64,000 bases of DNA from Sordariomycetes sp. S80-01Y. Taxonomy: Eukaryota > Ascomycota > Sordariomycetes. Below the pieces are notes generated by a model. It saw only the letters and a program-made list of their open reading frames with translations. It did no database searches and was not told where the DNA came from. The stretch is taken from positions 1,302,001 to 1,366,000 of the forward strand of contig JAXQJY010000033.1 of the NCBI GenBank assembly GCA_037042185.1, given 5' to 3'. Below are positions 12,389-28,119 of this stretch, piece after piece. Numbering within the stretch: position 1 is the first letter of the stretch; each line of letters opens with the position of its first letter. A program made the translations under genes and the position numbers.

Positions 12389-12790
12389 GGTGTATTCGAT
12401 CGATTCGAGTGAGCCGGTCGGAGGGTCAATTGGCGAAAAGGGAGCGTAGCGAGGTGGGCGTGGTGATACGACGGCTCGAAGCTGCCACGTTCGAAATCTG
12501 GCTGGTACTAAGATCAGGGGTGCAGGTGGGGTCACGTGCGCGGCTGCGCGAACCTGTAGGAGTCCTCGGTCGCGTCCTGAGACTTGCAATTTGTGACTGC
12601 TCGAAGCACCATCGTAACGTCAATCGACGGAGAGTTTCCATTTCACTTCTGTCGCAATTGCGCTGTCTAATTACCGTTTTAATCACTAATCAATACGCCT
12701 TCAATTCCCGACGTCCTGAACCCCGCGGTTTCGATCTCAGCCTGCATCCAGTGGATGAAGCGATAACCTTTCAATGCCGCACCCGCAACA
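12389..12790. promoter_or_regulatory. Divergent promoter, p24 / SWC4
   Basis: 402 bp between two divergent start codons. No TATA box or known operator was recognised. Confidence 0.4.
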
Positions 12791-14662
12791 ATGAGCTCTT
12801 CCGACGTCCGCGACGTTCTCAACCTCCCGGACGGCGCGCCACCGACCGGCGGACGACCTTCCAAGAAAGCGCGCCTCTCAGCGCCCCGGCCAAACCTGAA
12901 AGGTCTTGCGCGCGAAGTCTACAGCCTCGGCGGCGACAACCCTATAGCCATCGTACCAGAAGTGTCGAGTTTCAAAAAGAAGAGGCTTGCGAATCGGAAA
13001 CCGGCTGCAAAGTGGGAGCTGACTCCATTTAAGAATTCTGCGAGGGATGATCAGACGCTTGTATTGCGACATTGGCGAAGAAAGAGGGATGGGCTAGGAC
13101 AGGAGCTGGTAAAGGGGCCGCCAGAACAGACGGAGACGCAAGGCGACGAGACGGCAGGGGTGAAAGAGGAGGCACAGACTGCTGAGGCTGAGGCTGAGGC
13201 GCCAGCGGCTGGGGAGATGGAAGATTCGGCTTTCGCAAAGTTCAACGTCAAGGTCAACATTCCGACCTACACCGACGACCAGTACAAGCAGTACCTCGTC
13301 AGTGAAGTTTGGAGCAAGGAGGAAACAGACTATTTGATGGAGGTAGTTACTGACTTCGAGCTCCGATGGCCCCTTATCTGGGATCGCTACGAATGGAACC
13401 CGCCAGCAACCAACGGCGAGGCAAACGCCGACGGCGACGAAAGTAAAGCCATCGTGCCGACAACGCAGGCTCGTACGATGGAGGATCTGAAGGCGCGGTA
13501 TTACGAAGTTGCAGCCAAAGTCATGGCCATCCAAAAGCCTGTGCAGTACATGTCACAACAAGAGTTTGCGCTACACGAGACGATGGCCAAGTTTGACCCG
13601 GAAAGAGAAAAGGCTCGGAAGGACTTCGCTCGCAACGCACTGGCTCGGTCTAAGGAGGAAGCTCGCGAAGAGGAGTCATTGCTGCTCGAGGTGAAGAGGA
13701 TCCTCGCGCGCAGCGAGCGCTTTAACGAGGAGCGCCGAGAACTTTACCATCGGTTGGACTATCCGGGCACTGTCGAGGATATTACTCCCTACAAGAGCTC
13801 TACTGGATTGCAAGCCTTGCTCAACCAGCTGGTTCAGACCGACAAGGCTAAAAAGCGACGGTCGCTCATGGGCACTGAAGGGCAAGGCGCCTCTGTGAAT
13901 CCTGCAGCAGCTCAAGCGGCAGCTCAGGAGAGCAGCAGGCGGGAGAGCATGTCGTCGCAAACTACGGCTCAGCCTCCACCGGCTGCCGGCAACAAGAAGG
14001 GTCAACAGCAACAGCACGAACGCCCAAAGCTTACGGAGAAAGAAGAGGCAATCTACGGTGTCGTGCACTTTGACAGGCTTGGCTCTGGACCTATCTTCCG
14101 ATCGGAGAAGATCAACAAACTGTTTTCGCACAAGTCAAACCAGCAACAGCAGCGTATTTACAATGCCCTCAGCGAGCTTGATGTGCCCCAGAAGCTCGCC
14201 ATGCCGACGGCCAGCACAACTGCGCAGTACGAGCAGCTTATCGCTGCGGTCAATACGCTGATTGACACTCGCAAGGTTGTCGATCGACTGGACGCAGAAC
14301 TCAAGACGGAGGAGGCTAAGCAGGGACTCATCGAAGCCAAGCTGAACCCCCGGCCAGGAGGTGATCAAGGGAATGAACACGCAACTCAAGACAACGCCGT
14401 TGCTTCCACGGAGCAGCCGGGAGCAGGCGGAGAGGAAGCGCTATCGCAGGCTGAGTACGGCGAAGCTAAAGCAACGGCAGAAGACACCGTCAACGATGAT
14501 GGGCCGGAGCCTGACGCAGGGGACGATGATAACACAGAGGCGAAAGGACAGAAGGGAGAGGAGAAGGCAGTCCGTCCGAAGAGCAGTAGTGGCGCGCCCA
14601 AGCGGAGTGCTAGTGTTCTCAGCGCCGCGAGCGACAAAAGCACTAAGCGACAAAAGAAGTAG
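12791..14662 (+). CDS. SWC4: SWR1/NuA4 complex subunit SWC4 (DMAP1 family)
   Basis: Shared subunit of the SWR1 chromatin remodeller (H2A.Z loading) and the NuA4 histone acetyltransferase, in the nucleus. Intronless, 623 residues. The N-terminus MSSSDVRDVLNLPD and the conserved basic stretch FKKKRLANRKPAAKWELTPFKNSAR (about 60-84) are typical of SWC4/DMAP1. The SANT/Myb-like domain follows (about 168-245, SEVWSKEETDYLMEVVTDFELRWPLIWDRYEW). A helical region with RSERFNEERRELYHRLDYPGT precedes the C-terminal DMAP part (YGVVHFDRLGSGPIFRSEKIN). The tail beyond residue 520 is acidic, low complexity and ends in a basic Lys/Arg patch that may serve as nuclear targeting. The start is the first ATG and fits the family start. 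Confidence 0.95.
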   Translation: MSSSDVRDVLNLPDGAPPTGGRPSKKARLSAPRPNLKGLAREVYSLGGDNPIAIVPEVSSFKKKRLANRKPAAKWELTPFKNSARDDQTLVLRHWRRKRDGLGQELVKGPPEQTETQGDETAGVKEEAQTAEAEAEAPAAGEMEDSAFAKFNVKVNIPTYTDDQYKQYLVSEVWSKEETDYLMEVVTDFELRWPLIWDRYEWNPPATNGEANADGDESKAIVPTTQARTMEDLKARYYEVAAKVMAIQKPVQYMSQQEFALHETMAKFDPEREKARKDFARNALARSKEEAREEESLLLEVKRILARSERFNEERRELYHRLDYPGTVEDITPYKSSTGLQALLNQLVQTDKAKKRRSLMGTEGQGASVNPAAAQAAAQESSRRESMSSQTTAQPPPAAGNKKGQQQQHERPKLTEKEEAIYGVVHFDRLGSGPIFRSEKINKLFSHKSNQQQQRIYNALSELDVPQKLAMPTASTTAQYEQLIAAVNTLIDTRKVVDRLDAELKTEEAKQGLIEAKLNPRPGGDQGNEHATQDNAVASTEQPGAGGEEALSQAEYGEAKATAEDTVNDDGPEPDAGDDDNTEAKGQKGEEKAVRPKSSSGAPKRSASVLSAASDKSTKRQKK

Positions 14663-19225: not shown

Positions 19226-21278
19226 TTTTGGGGGACGGCCCTCAAAGTCAGGTGAGGAGCTTGGATTCAGCCTCGCACAACAGCGAACAAGGACATGCGA
19301 CGCCATCAGTAAGCTGGGTAAAGAAGCCGCGGCGAAAACGAATCCAAAGAGAAGCGCTCGGGGGCCTGCAACAAACACTGGTCGCTCTTTGGGGGGCTCT
19401 GCTGTTCGAGCTGCCGCGCGAGTATCGCGTCGGATGTTTGCATTTCGGTCGAGGCGAGATGGCGGGCGGAAGTTCGGCCAGCGGCAGATAGTCGCGCGGT
19501 GGGCTGCGGCAAACCGCCAACAATGGGAAACGGGATACGATAGGAAGTCGAGGCGCGTACACAGTCGCGGTGTTGATCCACGCCTGAGGACGCTGGGCTG
19601 AGTTGCAGCTCACTCCCAAAAGGAGTTGCCGAAGTGCGGAGGGCATCACAGGGCAGGCGCAGCATGACAGACACGGAACACCCAACCTTGAAGATAGTAC
19701 GGCAAGGTCAGGTAGCTCTGGCCAGAGATAAAAATAAAGCCATTGAACTGTATTGTTTCGAGAGGAGGAGATGGAGACGGTTGGTTGTAGCTGTTGGTCC
19801 TGCCCCATTGCAGGTGCTCTTTCCGAGTCCACCTCAGGTGGTTTGACGTCGACGGCATGAGGTGGACGGTCAGACCTGCCCGCTGGGAGCCTGAGCCTGC
19901 TAGTGAGCCTGAGGTGAGTCGGCGCGAGGTGAAGGTATCGCACATGTACCGCCGATGCGGCTTCGATGTACCCCGTGCTCGTAAGGCAGGGCGCCTCAAG
20001 CGCCGGCGCGGCAGGCCTCGCGACCTGGCAGCCAGCAGATCTGGCCGGCACTGTACAAGGCGCTTGTCACGCACCAGCCGTCCGCCCGGGACGCACCTCC
20101 CTCCATTCGACGCCCACGCCCCCCCTGGCAGAGGCCCCAGCACCCTTGTCCTCCGCCCCGGTTGGAGGGTCCTCGTCCTCCTCTCACCTGTATCATCACC
20201 AACCAAAAGCACTGCAAGCCCAGCTCACGTCCAACCTCTCAGCTTTCTCTCCTCTCGCCTCTCACCAACCCTCGCTTGTTTCCCTGCTGGTTACGGACCC
20301 TCCGCTCGCTTGACTTGAGTCACATACACGCACTTTACTCGCCTCATCAACTCCGATATCCTGGAGATATTTGCCCTCAGACAGACTCCAGCCCTCACCA
20401 CAAGCGCACTTCCCCTCCCCAGCCGCAACAGACGCAACGCCGGTCGTAATCGCGCGTCAAAAATCTCCTGGCTCTCCTCCAAGCGCGATCGGCGCCCGAC
20501 AGCTTGAATTTGTCTCCAAAAACTAAGAGACCTCGTCCGCGCCTCTTTCCGCCTCAAATTTATTGTTTAACACCAAAATCGACCTTGCAACTGATTTACC
20601 AAGTTTCATCACTTTGTCAAAGAGGCGATCCCGGATCCTGGCGGCTGGCTCGTTGCTGTGCTTTTGTTTGCTGCGGAGTGCAATCCGAATCTCGCGGGCA
20701 GCTCACTCGGACTCGGCAGTGCCGACAGAAATCCAGCGACCACAGGCAGTACGACTGCGACGTCAAACGTCAGAAACAACCGCGTCAACTTGCCTGGATT
20801 TGGAGCGCCGTCACGCGAGGCACTTTGGCTTTTCGGCTGCTCCCGCGCTTGTCACGGCCATCGTCAAACTTCGCCAACTGAGCGCAGCGACTCCACAAGT
20901 CGATCCCGACCTGTGTTGCTTACGTTCGCTTGGTTTTTGGAATTGCGACTTGCAACCCAGTTCCAACCTTCTTCCTCGAGCGCTCTGACCGCGTCCAGCT
21001 CAAGTTCGGCAACGGCGCCATACTCATGCACTGGCAGCTTTGACGGCGAGAACGTCACCCTTTGGTTAGCGCCGATACCCGCCATACGCGCTTGCTCGAC
21101 ATTCGGAACTGATAAGCAACGGCAAAAGTCTGGAATTCCGACACTTCTTTACTAAACTCCGCTATCGTCACTCACTCCTTAATTTTCACTGTGGCCAGGT
21201 GCCGTGCACTTAAGCTGCTTACGCGCGGTCAGGTGAGCGTAACCTCTAGTGACAGCGCTTTGTTCTCTGAACGAGAAC

Positions 21279-23337
21279 ATGTCCGCATTCACAGCTCTCA
21301 ACGGGGGCTCGCCAAGTACAGTGGAAACACCCATAATCAAGGTGGACAGTTCGGCTACCGGCGAGCAAACCGCGGCAACGACGTCGCCACCTCAAGCGTC
21401 GACTCAGAACTCAGATGCCTCCAGGGCAGCTCTAGACCGCCCGAAACTCCAGATGACCGACCACTCAGAAGGCTCACTCAAGAGGAAGCGATCAGCTTCC
21501 GCGGACTTGAGGGATAAGCAGCTGATTCAGGAGAGGACTCCAGATACGGCAACAGCGCCTCCTCATGGCGGACCTCAAGATCCATTCGGGACGCCAAAGC
21601 GAGATCATCAGCAGTTTTCCCCAGATACTCGGGACCGGGAACCGTGGGCTGGGCCACGAAATCACGAACAGCAGTCGCCATACCAGTCTCGACAGGGTTC
21701 GGCTACATCGCCTCCCCGCCAGACTGACGAACAGATTAGTGACGCTCTGCGAAGAGCGACTGACCATACGGACCAGGGCTCGTGCTCCGAGGCCGATGAT
21801 CGATCTGTTTCCTACTATGAGGGGCAGTACAGCTCTTCTCAAAATCCCGATCCTATGCTGCAGCACGATCCGAAGAAGCGAAAGCGCAACTTTAGCAATC
21901 GTACCAAGACTGGTTGCCTGACTTGTCGTAAAAGGAAGAAGAAGTGCGACGAGACAAAACCAGAGTGTAAGATATCTTCGAATTTGGAAGCTGTACCTAC
22001 TTGCTGACAGGTGTTTAGGCCATAATTGTGTCAAGGGCGGATTCGTCTGCGCCGGCTATCCCCAAAACAGTAGGGGAACCAGCTGGCAAAAGCAAGACAA
22101 CAAGTCGCCTACTGTTCCTTTGGAATCCAAGGATCCAAGTTACATCCCCCCTGGGGCTTACGGCATGCCGCAGCAAGGCGCGTTTGTTCACCCACCTGTC
22201 CCAGTCAAGCGAGAGCCCCTCCCCGGCCATCGCGGTCAGCCCCTCCGGATAGACCCGCCGCAGGGCCGCCCCGTGGTCACGGATGACGACCGCCCAACAG
22301 CATCAACAATGCCTAGCGCGTCAGTCGCGAGTCCTGATAACAAACTTTCTGCTTTATATACGCCGGCGAACGCGTTCCCAACTCCCGTCAGCGCAAACAC
22401 TCAACCTCCTTCATTCAACGACAGGATGACCAAAGACTACCAACGCATGCCCCCCTTGCACGACCCGAGCAGGACTGCAGAGCCGGAGACACCCATCCCT
22501 GGGACACCTCATCCCGGCACTCAGCTACCTCAGATCAATATCCTCCATGCTACTGGTCGAGGCAGTCCTGGTTCGTCGAACCAAGCCCAAGGGAACAACC
22601 CCCAGATGGCAGCTCAACTCGCGCTCAATCACTCAAGCTACCCCCATAAGCGCACACAAAAGGAAGAGATGCTCAATGGCCGCCTCTTCTACCCCTTCGA
22701 CAAGGAGCTGTGCCTCGAGCGCGAGCGATGTGCGGGCGCCTGTTGGCGCTTCAACAACCTATCGTCTCCTCCTTACGGAATATCCCCTGAGGAGCGCTCG
22801 CGGTTGTTCCGGGAGATTCTGCAGCCTCGGGATCCAATCCGCATGTCCGCAGCGGAGGCATCTCCTGTCACCAACATTGGGAGAGTTGGCCGCAACGGCA
22901 CAGTAGAGGCCCCATTCCAGTGTGACTATGGCTACAACATTGTCATGGGCAATAACATTTCCATCGGCCGCAACTGCACTATCAATGACGTGTGCGAGGT
23001 TTCGATTGGTGACAACACTGTGTTCGGTCCGAACGTCAGCATCTACACTGCGTCCCTGCCCATTGACCCTAAGAGGCGGCAAGGTGGCCAGGGTCCACAG
23101 TCTGGAAAGAGCGTGACCATCGGCGAGGATGTGTGGGTTGGGGGCGGCGCAACTCTTCTGCCTGGCATCAAGATTGGGAAGGGAAGCACTATTGGAGCTG
23201 GTTCTGTTGTGACCAAGGTACGCCAAGTCTCACCACTGACCACCGCCCGCATAGACTAACTCGCTGGCTAGGATGTTCCCCCATTCACTGTCTTTGCTGG
23301 TAACCCAGCTAAAGTCATCCGCGGTATCGCCGCTTGA
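21279..23337 (+). CDS. Zn2Cys6 regulator fused to maltose-acetyltransferase-like domain
   Basis: Probable nuclear DNA-binding protein with a sugar O-acetyltransferase-like C-terminus. Three exons (21279-21966, 22019-23217, 23272-23337) give 650 residues. Residues 1-200 are disordered. The Zn2Cys6 cluster uses Cys213, 216, 223, 230, 233 and 240 (CLTCRKRKKKCDETKPEC, HNCVKGGFVC), and intron 1 splits the codon of Cys230. A Pro-rich linker (241-440) leads to a Mac domain (about 444-495, KEEMLNGRLFYPFDKEL, WRFNN) and left-handed beta-helix hexapeptides (about 520-645, CDYGYNIVMGNN, VWVGGGATLLPGIKIGKG, VFAGNPAKVIRG). In bacterial Maa/LacA the catalytic His lies in YTATHPIDP; here the aligned segment is YTASLPIDP, with Leu576. 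Catalysis by the usual mechanism is therefore doubtful; trimerisation or ligand sensing are options. The start is the first in-frame ATG. Confidence 0.9.
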
Positions 23338-25482: not shown

Positions 25483-27708
25483 CTAGGGGACCATATCAGG
25501 CAGTGGCGGATCTATCATCATGTCATCTAGAGTATCGTCGCGCAAATAGCGGTCAATTGTGTTCTGTGTGCCGTTAGTGACATTGTTACAGCAGCTCCCG
25601 AGCTTGGCAAATACGCACCCAGTCTAGTCCCTCAGTGGTGCTGAAGAAGCTGTCAATCGGGAGGAGATCATCGAAATTGATATGGTCGTCGCCAACATAC
25701 GGCTGGGCCATCATCAAATCTGCTGTTGGCGGTTGCAAGGGGAACGGGGTCGAATTGTTGGGGGTTGCGATCTCAAGCGTTGACTCCGACGCAGCGAGAC
25801 TACTCCCTTTGGAAGAACACTTTGGAGTATCAACCCTGACCAAGATTGCTCGCAGGACCTTGGCCGCATGTCTAGCATCTGAAGAGGCGCTGCTACGCGC
25901 TGACCACATATTCTCAGCGGTGCGGAGGATGTTTATTCGGTGAGCTCTGTCCTCCGGACTGGGCGGCGGGTTAGCATCAGCATCTGTGGGAAGGGGTTCA
26001 AAGCTCACTTCATGGTCGTGCAGTCGTTGAGTTCGAGGCAGATAATCATAGCCGCAACCAGGAATCCATGCAACGTTAGACTCGAAACCATGTATCTGTC
26101 CTCGTAAAGCCTGCCTCCAGGCTGAGTCTCCCGATCAACCTCGATATGCATGTCAAACATCTTCAGCGCAGCATCTCGACATACTTCCAAGGCGTAGGTG
26201 CAAATTTGGCCCTGGCCTCCACCCAGAAGGAAAGACCTGAAGAGCATGCAGCGACTCATCTGGTACATGAGTTCCAGCATAATTCGATGGAAGATGGTGT
26301 GGTTGGCGTCTGTGAAGGATGTGTCCCGGATGGGCCGATATTTGAGGCTCTGCGGTATCGACAAGTACCACTCCTCAAGTGCCGTTGATTGCTTTCTAGC
26401 CCCTTCGACAGAATGGATTAGTATCCCGAGAGCATGTCGCATGATTCGTCTGAATATGGGGAGCATGTGTGACTTCGTCGCATAGGCGAGAATGGGGCTC
26501 GGATCCTTGGGCGGGCGTGGGCTTAGACTGACGCTATCTTCGTCGAAGTCTTCGTCTTCGAGATTGAGCGGATGTCCCGCATCGCACATGTCCTCATGGG
26601 TCATAGGTGGCATGCCGTGTTGCTGTGAAAAGAGTAGGTCGTAAGACTCGATGGCGAACCACACCCGCCGCCTCATCTCCGCTTCGAAGGGCGTCATCTT
26701 CGAGAATACCTTGCTAGCGTCTCTATGATAGCCCTGTCTTTGTGCAAGGCGAATTGCTACGCTGTATAAGGTCCAGATGACGGGATCTCTTTCTTGGTTG
26801 TGGAAGTTCCGAGTATGGGCGTGCATTATGAGCGCCTCGACGGATAGGGGCCTGGACTTTAGATACTGGCCGGAGATCAGACATCGCGCTGCCATTTTCA
26901 TGTACGACAGCGAGTCATAATGTGATGTTGGTTGAGAGAGTGACGTGCCCTTCATTGTAGCCACCAAAGTGCCACAGCTGAGTATTGAGAAGAAGATGCT
27001 GATCCACAACAGACTTGTCGACTCAGGGGCATCCCAAAAAGCTGCATATTTCCTCTGGAACTGGCCCGTATGCAAGATCGGCACGGCGACGAACTTTGCG
27101 GAGAAGTAAGCAGTGATGAGCTTGTCGACGTCTGAGCGGGGTGGCAGAGCTTTCAAGATCTCGTCCATGGTGACATGGGGAAGGTAACCGAAAAGTATAT
27201 CAGGATCATCTGCTACGGTTCTGTCGCACGGGAGTCCGGATTCGTTGTCCTCATCGAGTGCGCTCTGAATATCACGGATGCTCTCCACCAAAGCTGACCA
27301 GGACGTCGCTCCCTCGTAAGTCCAAGTCTCGGGATCCAGCGACCCATGGTCGAGCTGTGATGGGCGACTGTTATTAATGATAGTCGTATCAGATGGAGAA
27401 ACCTTAAAGCCTCGATTCTGATTGCTGGCAAGGCTCCTCACCAGGTCCTCAAGCTTGGTGAGGCGTTGTTGGACCTCGGGCCTGCTGCCCAGCACTCCGC
27501 CGTTCGTCATCGAGGACGCAGGGCCGAAGCGACAGGCGTCCTCTCCCCCTCTCTTCTCGCACGCTCCGCAAGGCTGTCGCCTGTCGCATCTAGATTTGCG
27601 CTTTTGGCACGCAATGCACGAGACTGCTGGCCTATTACGCTTGACCTTCCGTGGCTCGCGACTAGCGGGGAAGACGGTAGTAAATTGTGATGGCGCTGCT
27701 TCAGGCAT
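25483..27708 (-). CDS. Zn2Cys6 transcription factor with fungal-specific TF domain
   Basis: Nuclear regulator of unknown target. Three exons (27708-26009, 25946-25619, 25563-25483) give 702 residues. The zinc cluster lies near the N-terminus with Cys31, 34, 41, 47, 50 and 59 (SCIACQKRKSRCDRRQPCGAC). A linker (LTKLEDLVRSL) follows. The fungal_trans homology region (about 230-480) contains LITAYFSAKFVAVPILHTGQFQRKY, AIRLAQRQGYHRDASKVFSKMTPFEAEMRRRVWFAIESYDLLFSQQHGMP, the hallmark middle of this domain. The last two exons encode an acidic, Pro/Ser-rich end (NTIDRYLRDDTLDDMMIDPPLPDMVP) that could act in activation. The start MPEAAPSQF is the first ATG giving a usual distance to the cluster. Confidence 0.9.
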
Positions 27709-28119
27709 GATTTGGAGTAGGTCAATGGAAATGGGAAGATGCGCGTAATGACACTCTACCGATTGCAGCTGGCAGCCCAAAGTTGGTGGCGATGAGTGAG
27801 GTTGAGGAGGCAGTACGCAGGTGACAAAAAGAGGCAGGTCAAAATCTGTCAATATATGACTGATCATCACCACAGCCCCTTTTCCTCCCGAGGGGCATCC
27901 GTTGTTTGGCGGCTACGGAGATACGTTATGTGTCGGGAATGCTGAACTCACGAAATGACGTGCAGAAACACCAATGGTTAGCCGCGAGGCCAGCTAATTT
28001 GGATCTATAGTTCTTCAATTGACCGGTAATATACAATAAGTACGCAGCTGCTCTAATGCTAAAGCTCTCCTGGAGTTCGTCGAGCTAGGCCTCATTTCTA
28101 TATACAACATTGGTATCTA
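27709..28119. promoter_or_regulatory. Promoter of Zn2Cys6 factor and 3' end of PPR gene
   Basis: 411 bp, relatively A+T-rich around 27990-28110. No gene seen. Confidence 0.35.

Follow-up and report, generated by a model that had tools for sequence, protein, structure and literature searches.

We find that the gene at 21279-23337 on the forward strand of Sordariomycetes sp. S80-01Y, within a window of 64,000 nucleotides (the whole stretch of DNA analysed), has three exons and encodes a 650-residue protein that, on sequence grounds, is the orthologue of FF-7 in a hypocrealean fungus, as judged by its cluster-before-helix layout, its full-length similarity and a clade support of 100. Orthologues of FF-7 are reported to govern fruiting-body formation, light responses, sporulation and infection by plant pathogens. 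We propose, with a probability of roughly 60%, that FF-7 is a nuclear, DNA-binding activator whose catalytically dead beta-helix trimerises its subunits and survives as a structural and regulatory module. The FF-7 protein and its family were already known, and what is new is a further member together with a correction of the proposed mechanism; within the open-licence PMC papers searched we found no statement of the family's loss of catalytic residues. With those residues lost in all examined members, the module is better approached as a domain for oligomerisation or ligand binding, and the pseudoenzyme view would explain missense loss of function in an enzyme-like domain without invoking enzyme activity.

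The open reading frame begins with an ATG at 21279, and the last base of its stop codon is 23337. Its exons, introns and domains are arranged as follows:

21279..21966, + strand: exon 1, encoding the N-terminal region, a basic KKRKRN stretch (residues 199-204) and the start of the zinc cluster as far as base 1 of the C230 codon
21909..22074, + strand: Zn2Cys6 binuclear cluster, residues 211-248 (Pfam PF00172 Zn_clus, 39.4 bits), with intron 1 inside it
21967..22018, + strand: intron 1 (GT...AG, 52 bp), splitting the codon of C230, the fourth cluster cysteine, within the zinc cluster
22019..23217, + strand: exon 2, encoding in a single frame the remaining zinc cluster, the linker, the Mac domain and most of the beta-helix (to residue 629)
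22075..22650, + strand: linker of 192 residues (249-440), 18% proline, with conserved motifs
22669..22824, + strand: Mac capping domain, residues 447-498 (Pfam PF12464, 49.8 bits)
22876..23328, + strand: left-handed beta-helix (hexapeptide), about residues 516-648, from Pfam and structure comparison
23218..23271, + strand: intron 2 (GT...AG, 54 bp)
23272..23337, + strand: exon 3, encoding the final 21 residues, DVPPFTVFAGNPAKVIRGIAA, and the stop

The initial annotation had described a full Zn2Cys6 cluster, a Mac domain and a hexapeptide beta-helix in one protein, and this description is borne out by the six-cysteine spacing, the Pfam matches and the shared exon. The cluster cysteines C213, C216, C223, C230, C233 and C240 are spaced CX2CX6CX6CX2CX6C, which matches a conventional Gal4-type factor; Hexapep was matched at residues 595-629 with 47.9 bits, and the Zn_clus, Mac and Hexapep scores all exceed the Pfam cut-off. 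The motifs CDYGYNI (531), VWVGG (601) and AGNPAKVI (638) lie exactly where that annotation had placed them. No in-frame stop interrupts exon 2 on its way from within the cluster almost to the end of the helix. Because the zinc cluster and the acetyltransferase-like domain thus lie in one stop-free exon, we regard the fusion as real and two neighbouring genes as very unlikely.

To compare the family, we drew on three protein searches, taking the best 120 of 1675, of 2116 and of 1395 matches, which together gave 246 distinct proteins. Sequences with more than 50% identity to the query across residues 520-644 were designated FF-7-like (182 of the 246 listed), and the remaining 64 are apparently bacterial proteins of 600-601 aa, one of them named as uncultured Megamonas. 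The organism-named fungal sequences among the matches listed come from Sordariomycetes and Leotiomycetes only, a class assignment that we take from the genus names. The sequence of N. crassa FF-7 itself is absent from the matches listed, and comparison with it runs through its relatives and its published description. The zinc-cluster pattern matches 118 of the 182 listed FF-7-like sequences, a lower bound since some longer sequences lacking the pattern carry the Zn_clus Pfam entry; of the 64 FF-7-like sequences that do not match the pattern, 43 are shorter than 510 aa. As a prokaryotic control we used the best 80 of 584 confirmed relatives, which is the better control given how little the 64 proteins of about 600 aa differ from one another at the counted sites. 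This control set was found partly by a pattern ending in VW, which biases its Trp count (80/80), and the 182 FF-7-like sequences share ancestry, so that counts among them are not independent.

Alignment with the E. coli enzymes Maa and LacA, together with the published Botrytis alleles, marks the following codons:

22927..22929, + strand: Tyr533, the equivalent of B. cinerea Y633 (allele Y633D); Y in 182/182 listed
22966..22968, + strand: Gly546, at the LacA Asn85 / Maa Asn83 site, by alignment
23056..23058, + strand: Leu576 (codon CTG), at the catalytic His site (LacA His115 / Maa His113), by alignment
23080..23085, + strand: two-residue enlargement of the catalytic loop, approximate place, by alignment
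23098..23100, + strand: Gln590, at the Maa Glu125 site, by alignment
23134..23136, + strand: Trp602, the LacA Trp139 equivalent, kept (W 165, F 16, gap 1 of 182 listed)
23194..23196, + strand: Gly622, the equivalent of B. cinerea G722 (allele G722R); G in 168/182 listed

Residues 572-580 read YTASLPIDP, whereas the same segment is YTATHPIDP in Maa and SVTGHPVHH in LacA, and Leu576 aligns with Maa His113 and LacA His115 with no local gap. The substitution of leucine for the catalytic histidine, as proposed at the outset, is therefore upheld by the CTG at 23056 and the gap-free alignment. Whether orthologues keep the histidine had been set beforehand as the refuting test, and none of the 182 listed FF-7-like sequences (the named ones from Sordariomycetes and Leotiomycetes) has it: the site holds Leu in 149, Cys in 14, Met in 7, Val in 6, Thr in 2, Ala in 2, Arg in 1 and Phe in 1. 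The 118 pattern-positive sequences show the same picture (Leu 88, Cys 14, Met 7, Val 3, Thr 2, Ala 2, Arg 1, Phe 1), while the histidine is present in all 80 of the best prokaryotic relatives (of 584 confirmed). Three Mac matches occur in the same fungal genome, and both stand-alone paralogues keep His, Asn and Glu. On the aligned sequences, the loss of the histidine is not a local change to the present fungus.

A compensating catalytic histidine elsewhere in the loop was considered and rejected, as 157 of the 182 listed FF-7-like sequences have no His anywhere in residues 568-594 and the other 25 have theirs scattered over 8 positions, of which 590 (11 sequences) and 577 (7) are the commonest, with no common replacement. 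His577, one residue past the lost site, is carried by P0202, P0205, P0210, P0232, P0173, P0143 and P0215 (7/182), among them Botrytis, Monilinia and Clarireedia, and is probably a chance event in these seven sequences. Arg at site 576 is found in P0024 (Purpureocillium lilacinum), whose zinc cluster is more divergent. P0173, P0176, P0178, P0038 (Colletotrichum) and P0024 are more divergent FF-7-like sequences from genera or species that also gave other members, and these divergent Colletotrichum and P. lilacinum sequences may be second copies under relaxed constraint.

The initial annotation had noted that the motifs neighbouring the lost histidine are kept, as indeed they are, but the active site is not otherwise intact, as the residues equivalent to LacA Tyr83, LacA Asn85 and Maa Glu125 are replaced. 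We take LacA Asn85 and Tyr83 to be active-site residues. At the Asn85 site, Asn is present in 79 of the 80 prokaryotic relatives and in none of the 182 listed FF-7-like sequences, 178 of which have Gly. The Maa Glu125 site holds Glu in 78/80 prokaryotic relatives (LacA itself has Met) as opposed to Gln in 113, Asn in 35, Ser in 16, His in 11, others in 7 and Glu in none of the 182 listed, and the LacA Tyr83 site, Tyr or Phe in 78/80 prokaryotic relatives, is aromatic in only 16 of the 182 (Ala 60, Val 54, Ser 30, Phe 15, Tyr 1, others). In addition, the loop following the His site exceeds that of Maa by two residues and has equal length in 180 of the 182 listed. LacA Asp93 also differs, but it varies among working enzymes and was left out of the argument. 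The suggestion that the domain senses a sugar in the manner of Maa is accordingly disfavoured, as is sensing through an intact acceptor site, with the LacA Tyr83, LacA Asn85 and Maa Glu125 equivalents all replaced and the acceptor side remodelled. The earlier proposal of a pseudoenzyme is well supported by these alignments, in which the Asn and Glu losses add to a histidine count of 0/182 listed; the FF-7 family appears to have lost its active site and retained selection on the domain.

The fold itself is retained. In the AlphaFold model of the orthologue P0049, the first row of the alignment that includes the query's exon 2 segment, 129 residues have a pLDDT of at least 90, and the final 25 residues are of low confidence. 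The best 11 PDB matches of P0049 are maltose O-acetyltransferases, and the top 26, with target-normalised TM-scores of 0.74-0.81, also hold galactoside acetyltransferases, the Vibrio acetyltransferase VCA0836 and designed tetrahedra listed as the putative acetyltransferase SACOL2570. A second model, that of P0179, is poorer (mean pLDDT 58.9). From the Pfam matches and the P0049 model with its PDB matches, we consider that the Mac cap and left-handed beta-helix are kept. The query is 42% identical to Maa and 40% identical to LacA over 179 aligned residues, with the same predicted fold, but differs from both in lacking the catalytic His and Asn and the Maa Glu125, in its longer catalytic loop and in carrying a DNA-binding domain. 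A tree of 121 sequences, computed with the active-site columns removed, joins the query and 36 FF-7-like representatives in one clade with an ultrafast bootstrap of 100 and places both stand-alone fungal paralogues elsewhere. Next to this clade stand, with support 86, four sequences that presumably belong to proteobacterial genera; as the FF-7 branch is long, this sister group is tentative. Within the clade the query groups with hypocrealean members and adjoins P0011 from Emericellopsis, and over residues 200-650 it is 72-75% identical to its five best organism-named matches (P0026, P0011, P0003, P0016 and P0031).

The initial annotation had also stated that no worked-out mechanism was known, which needs amending, since for the FF-7 family ChIP-seq data, a partner (SUB1), the phenotypes of knock-outs and missense alleles that lose function are all in print. 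In N. crassa, FF7 (NCU04001) is described as joining a Gal4-type cluster to a domain like maltose acetyltransferase, and it was reported to co-purify weakly with the GATA factor SUB1 and to have 2756 putative ChIP sites (PMC4378982). The same report gives reduced RNA for 192 of 519 light-inducible genes in the absence of FF7, which it describes as needed for transactivation and not for light-induced nucleosome eviction (PMC4378982). By its published description FF7, an activator in light responses and sexual development, has the same domains as the query; it has been labelled a putative O-acetyl transferase in print (PMC4378982, PMC6260400), a label that the alignment of the family contradicts. 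Links of FF-7 with a 7-hour rhythm and with circadian period have also been reported (PMC6260400, PMC8495738), and neither ff-7 nor NCU04001 is mentioned in PMC5592922. PMC4378982 gives the FF7 binding motif in three forms, AACCGC in its results section, AAGCGC in its discussion and t/c AAGCG c/a under Figure 6, and given these three versions the true motif is uncertain. Auto-regulation through this motif was rejected, as AACCGC occurs at background level (31 copies in the window versus a mean of 31.8 in shuffles); a single copy at 20778, some 500 bp upstream of the start codon, carries no evidential weight.

In B. cinerea, Bcin04g03490 was identified through natural non-pathogenic isolates (PMC8079791) and named the ff-7 orthologue (PMC8079791, PMC12027217), and its authors speculate that it acts by acetylating substrates such as chromatin proteins (PMC8079791). 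Its reported loss-of-function alleles are C330Y, Y633D and G722R, of which G722R and C330Y failed complementation tests, while Y633D was sequenced from a mutant isolate outside the complementation set (PMC8079791). We mapped these alleles through the B. sinoallii orthologue P0202, which as a stand-in is similar to the query over its full length and likewise has Leu at 576; with the numbering off by one (second cluster Cys 329 versus 330), C330 corresponds to C216, Y633 to Y533 and G722 to G622. One zinc-cluster residue and two beta-helix residues thereby appear to be indispensable, and since missense changes at the equivalents of Y533 and G622 cost function, the helix domain matters.

FF-7 orthologues have been reported across several Pezizomycotina classes (PMC8079791), and four further proteins can be likened to the query by their published descriptions rather than their sequences. 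AN1402 of A. nidulans is described with the same domains, and GFP-AN1402 is nuclear (PMC12316961); POX09752 of P. oxalicum has the same domains, its deletion leaving 50.1% of raw-starch enzyme activity (PMC6318894), and its counterpart PDE_06843 has been called an FF-7 orthologue (PMC7652724). FGSG_10069 / GzZC087 of F. graminearum is likewise called an orthologue (PMC8079791) and is also tabulated in PMC3197617, and CCG_00181 of T. guangdongense is a C6 zinc protein annotated as maltose O-acetyltransferase (PMC6471507). The last three residues of AN1402 are SYM, reported to work as a non-canonical peroxisome signal, although the GFP fusion was seen only in nuclei (PMC12316961); the query ends in IAA.

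How a probably dead enzyme domain might serve an activator is suggested by what the rest of the protein lacks. The Fungal_trans middle homology domain was absent from a Pfam scan that detected the same domain in the neighbouring factor at 26005-27912, which served as a positive control. In the P0049 and P0179 models the region after the cluster is predicted, at low pLDDT, to hold no helix or coiled coil, and their equivalent of the linker is predicted to be helix-free save for one helix directly before the Mac domain. Without a Fungal_trans domain or a predicted post-cluster helix (the latter at low confidence), the usual dimerisation elements were not found. Given that neither the middle homology domain nor a coiled coil was found, the beta-helix is the obvious oligomerisation element. 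Maa and LacA are trimeric, and by analogy with them the maltose-acetyltransferase-like C-terminal helix, probably dead in the classical catalytic sense and retained as a structural and regulatory module, would trimerise FF-7. Trimeric assembly of beta-helix enzymes has been shown for NeuO (PMC3046976), a source that also sets out the general roles of His and Trp in left-handed beta-helix (LbH) acetyltransferases. Such a trimer would tether as many as three zinc-cluster domains through long, flexible linkers, so that individually weak contacts, whether to half-sites or to partners such as the GATA factor SUB1, could add up at promoters through avidity. It is trimerisation, avidity and the absence of catalysis that we infer here. 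Two considerations count against this picture: the CoA-side residues, which a pure scaffold would not need, are largely kept in the alignment, and the classical histidine might be dispensable in some LbH enzymes.

Several other explanations can be set against a dead, trimerising module. A gene-model artefact joining two neighbouring genes, or a base error at residue 576, is hardly credible: nothing was found in its favour, both domains occur in one predicted protein in at least 118 of the 182 listed relatives, the shared exon is free of stops, and the residue-576 change is common to 182/182 listed, contrary to a sequencing error. It is also very improbable that the beta-helix is the functionless remnant of a decaying enzyme. 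The loss of catalytic residues would suit such decay, as would the acceptor-side positions, whose conservation is, if anything, below that of random positions in the domain (random sets being as conserved in 92% of draws). Against it, Tyr533 is invariant (182/182 listed), changes at the equivalents of Y533 and G622 are reported to give loss of function in Botrytis (PMC8079791), and the replaced active-site stretch is itself conserved (Gly546 in 178, Arg/Lys547 in 181 and Cys549 in 181 of the 182 listed). That the domain acetylates substrates by a route other than the classical active site, as the proposal for Bcin04g03490 and the printed O-acetyl transferase label would have it, we consider quite unlikely. 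In its favour, the fold survives together with most of the donor side, and some His is present in residues 568-594 in 25 of the 182 listed, such as His577 in Botrytis; however, the active-site His, Asn and Glu are missing from all 182 listed FF-7-like sequences, 157 of them lack any His in that loop, and residue 576 wanders among L, C, M, V, T, A, R and F, unlike a catalytic residue. The reported FF7-independent nucleosome eviction does not suggest chromatin acetylation, nor does it exclude such a role. The published acetylation mechanism for FF-7 is probably wrong.

A dead domain could still bind acetyl-CoA or CoA between its subunits, with occupancy altering the oligomer or its partner contacts and coupling metabolism to development and light, a reading that we regard as possible but doubtful. 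Using a list of CoA-contact residues that we take from the LacA structure, we observed that the donor side is kept across the 182 listed sequences (Trp602 as W in 165 and F in 16, A623 in 180, T628 as T/S in 175, K629 as K/R in 170), and the full donor set (W/F, A, T/S, K/R, K/R) is present in 122 of the 144 listed sequences whose C-terminus is complete, and in 109 of these 122 the aromatic residue is W. A conserved Trp that comes from the neighbouring subunit and lies opposite the His is described as marking acetyl-CoA-using LbH enzymes (PMC3046976). On the other hand, K643 is poorly conserved, some groups show W to F and G to A changes, and donor-side residues may be kept for the fold. Donor-side conservation also does not exceed that of random position sets in the same domain (P = 0.26), and a conserved CoA site was rejected as proof of acetyl-CoA binding, random positions being equally conserved in 26% of draws. 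Of the ways to extend the scaffold picture, acetyl-CoA sensing has the most appeal, being possible but weakly supported. In its widest form, a trimeric FF-7 throughout Pezizomycotina would use its dead acetyltransferase to sense nuclear acetyl-CoA as a measure of carbon state, tuning the drive from FF-7 and SUB1 with no acetyl transfer; we hold this to be rather unlikely, and if it is true, the output of an acetyl-CoA-sensing FF-7 with SUB1 on light-induced and sexual-development genes would follow carbon state. Ngs1 of Candida albicans is described as using an enzyme-homology domain as a sensor in transcription control, as this sensing would, but its domains are different ones, it is still an active acetyltransferase, and a separate factor, Rep1, directs it to promoters.

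The scaffold reading aside, two further frames were recognised in the window. At 12767-14662 (+) lies a DMAP1-like SANT protein (PF16282, 102 bits), of a kind that we take to be Swc4 subunits of the NuA4/SWR1 complexes, and at 26005-27912 (-), about 2.7 kb downstream of the gene, is a conventional factor frame with Zn_clus and Fungal_trans domains. Among the proteins of 600-601 aa in the search results, P0057 from uncultured Megamonas holds three tandem Mac/beta-helix modules in one chain, with His in each module (segments 111-119, 312-320 and 514-522), and from its sequence it looks like a natural single-chain trimer; 63 further proteins of 600-601 aa match P0057 in length.
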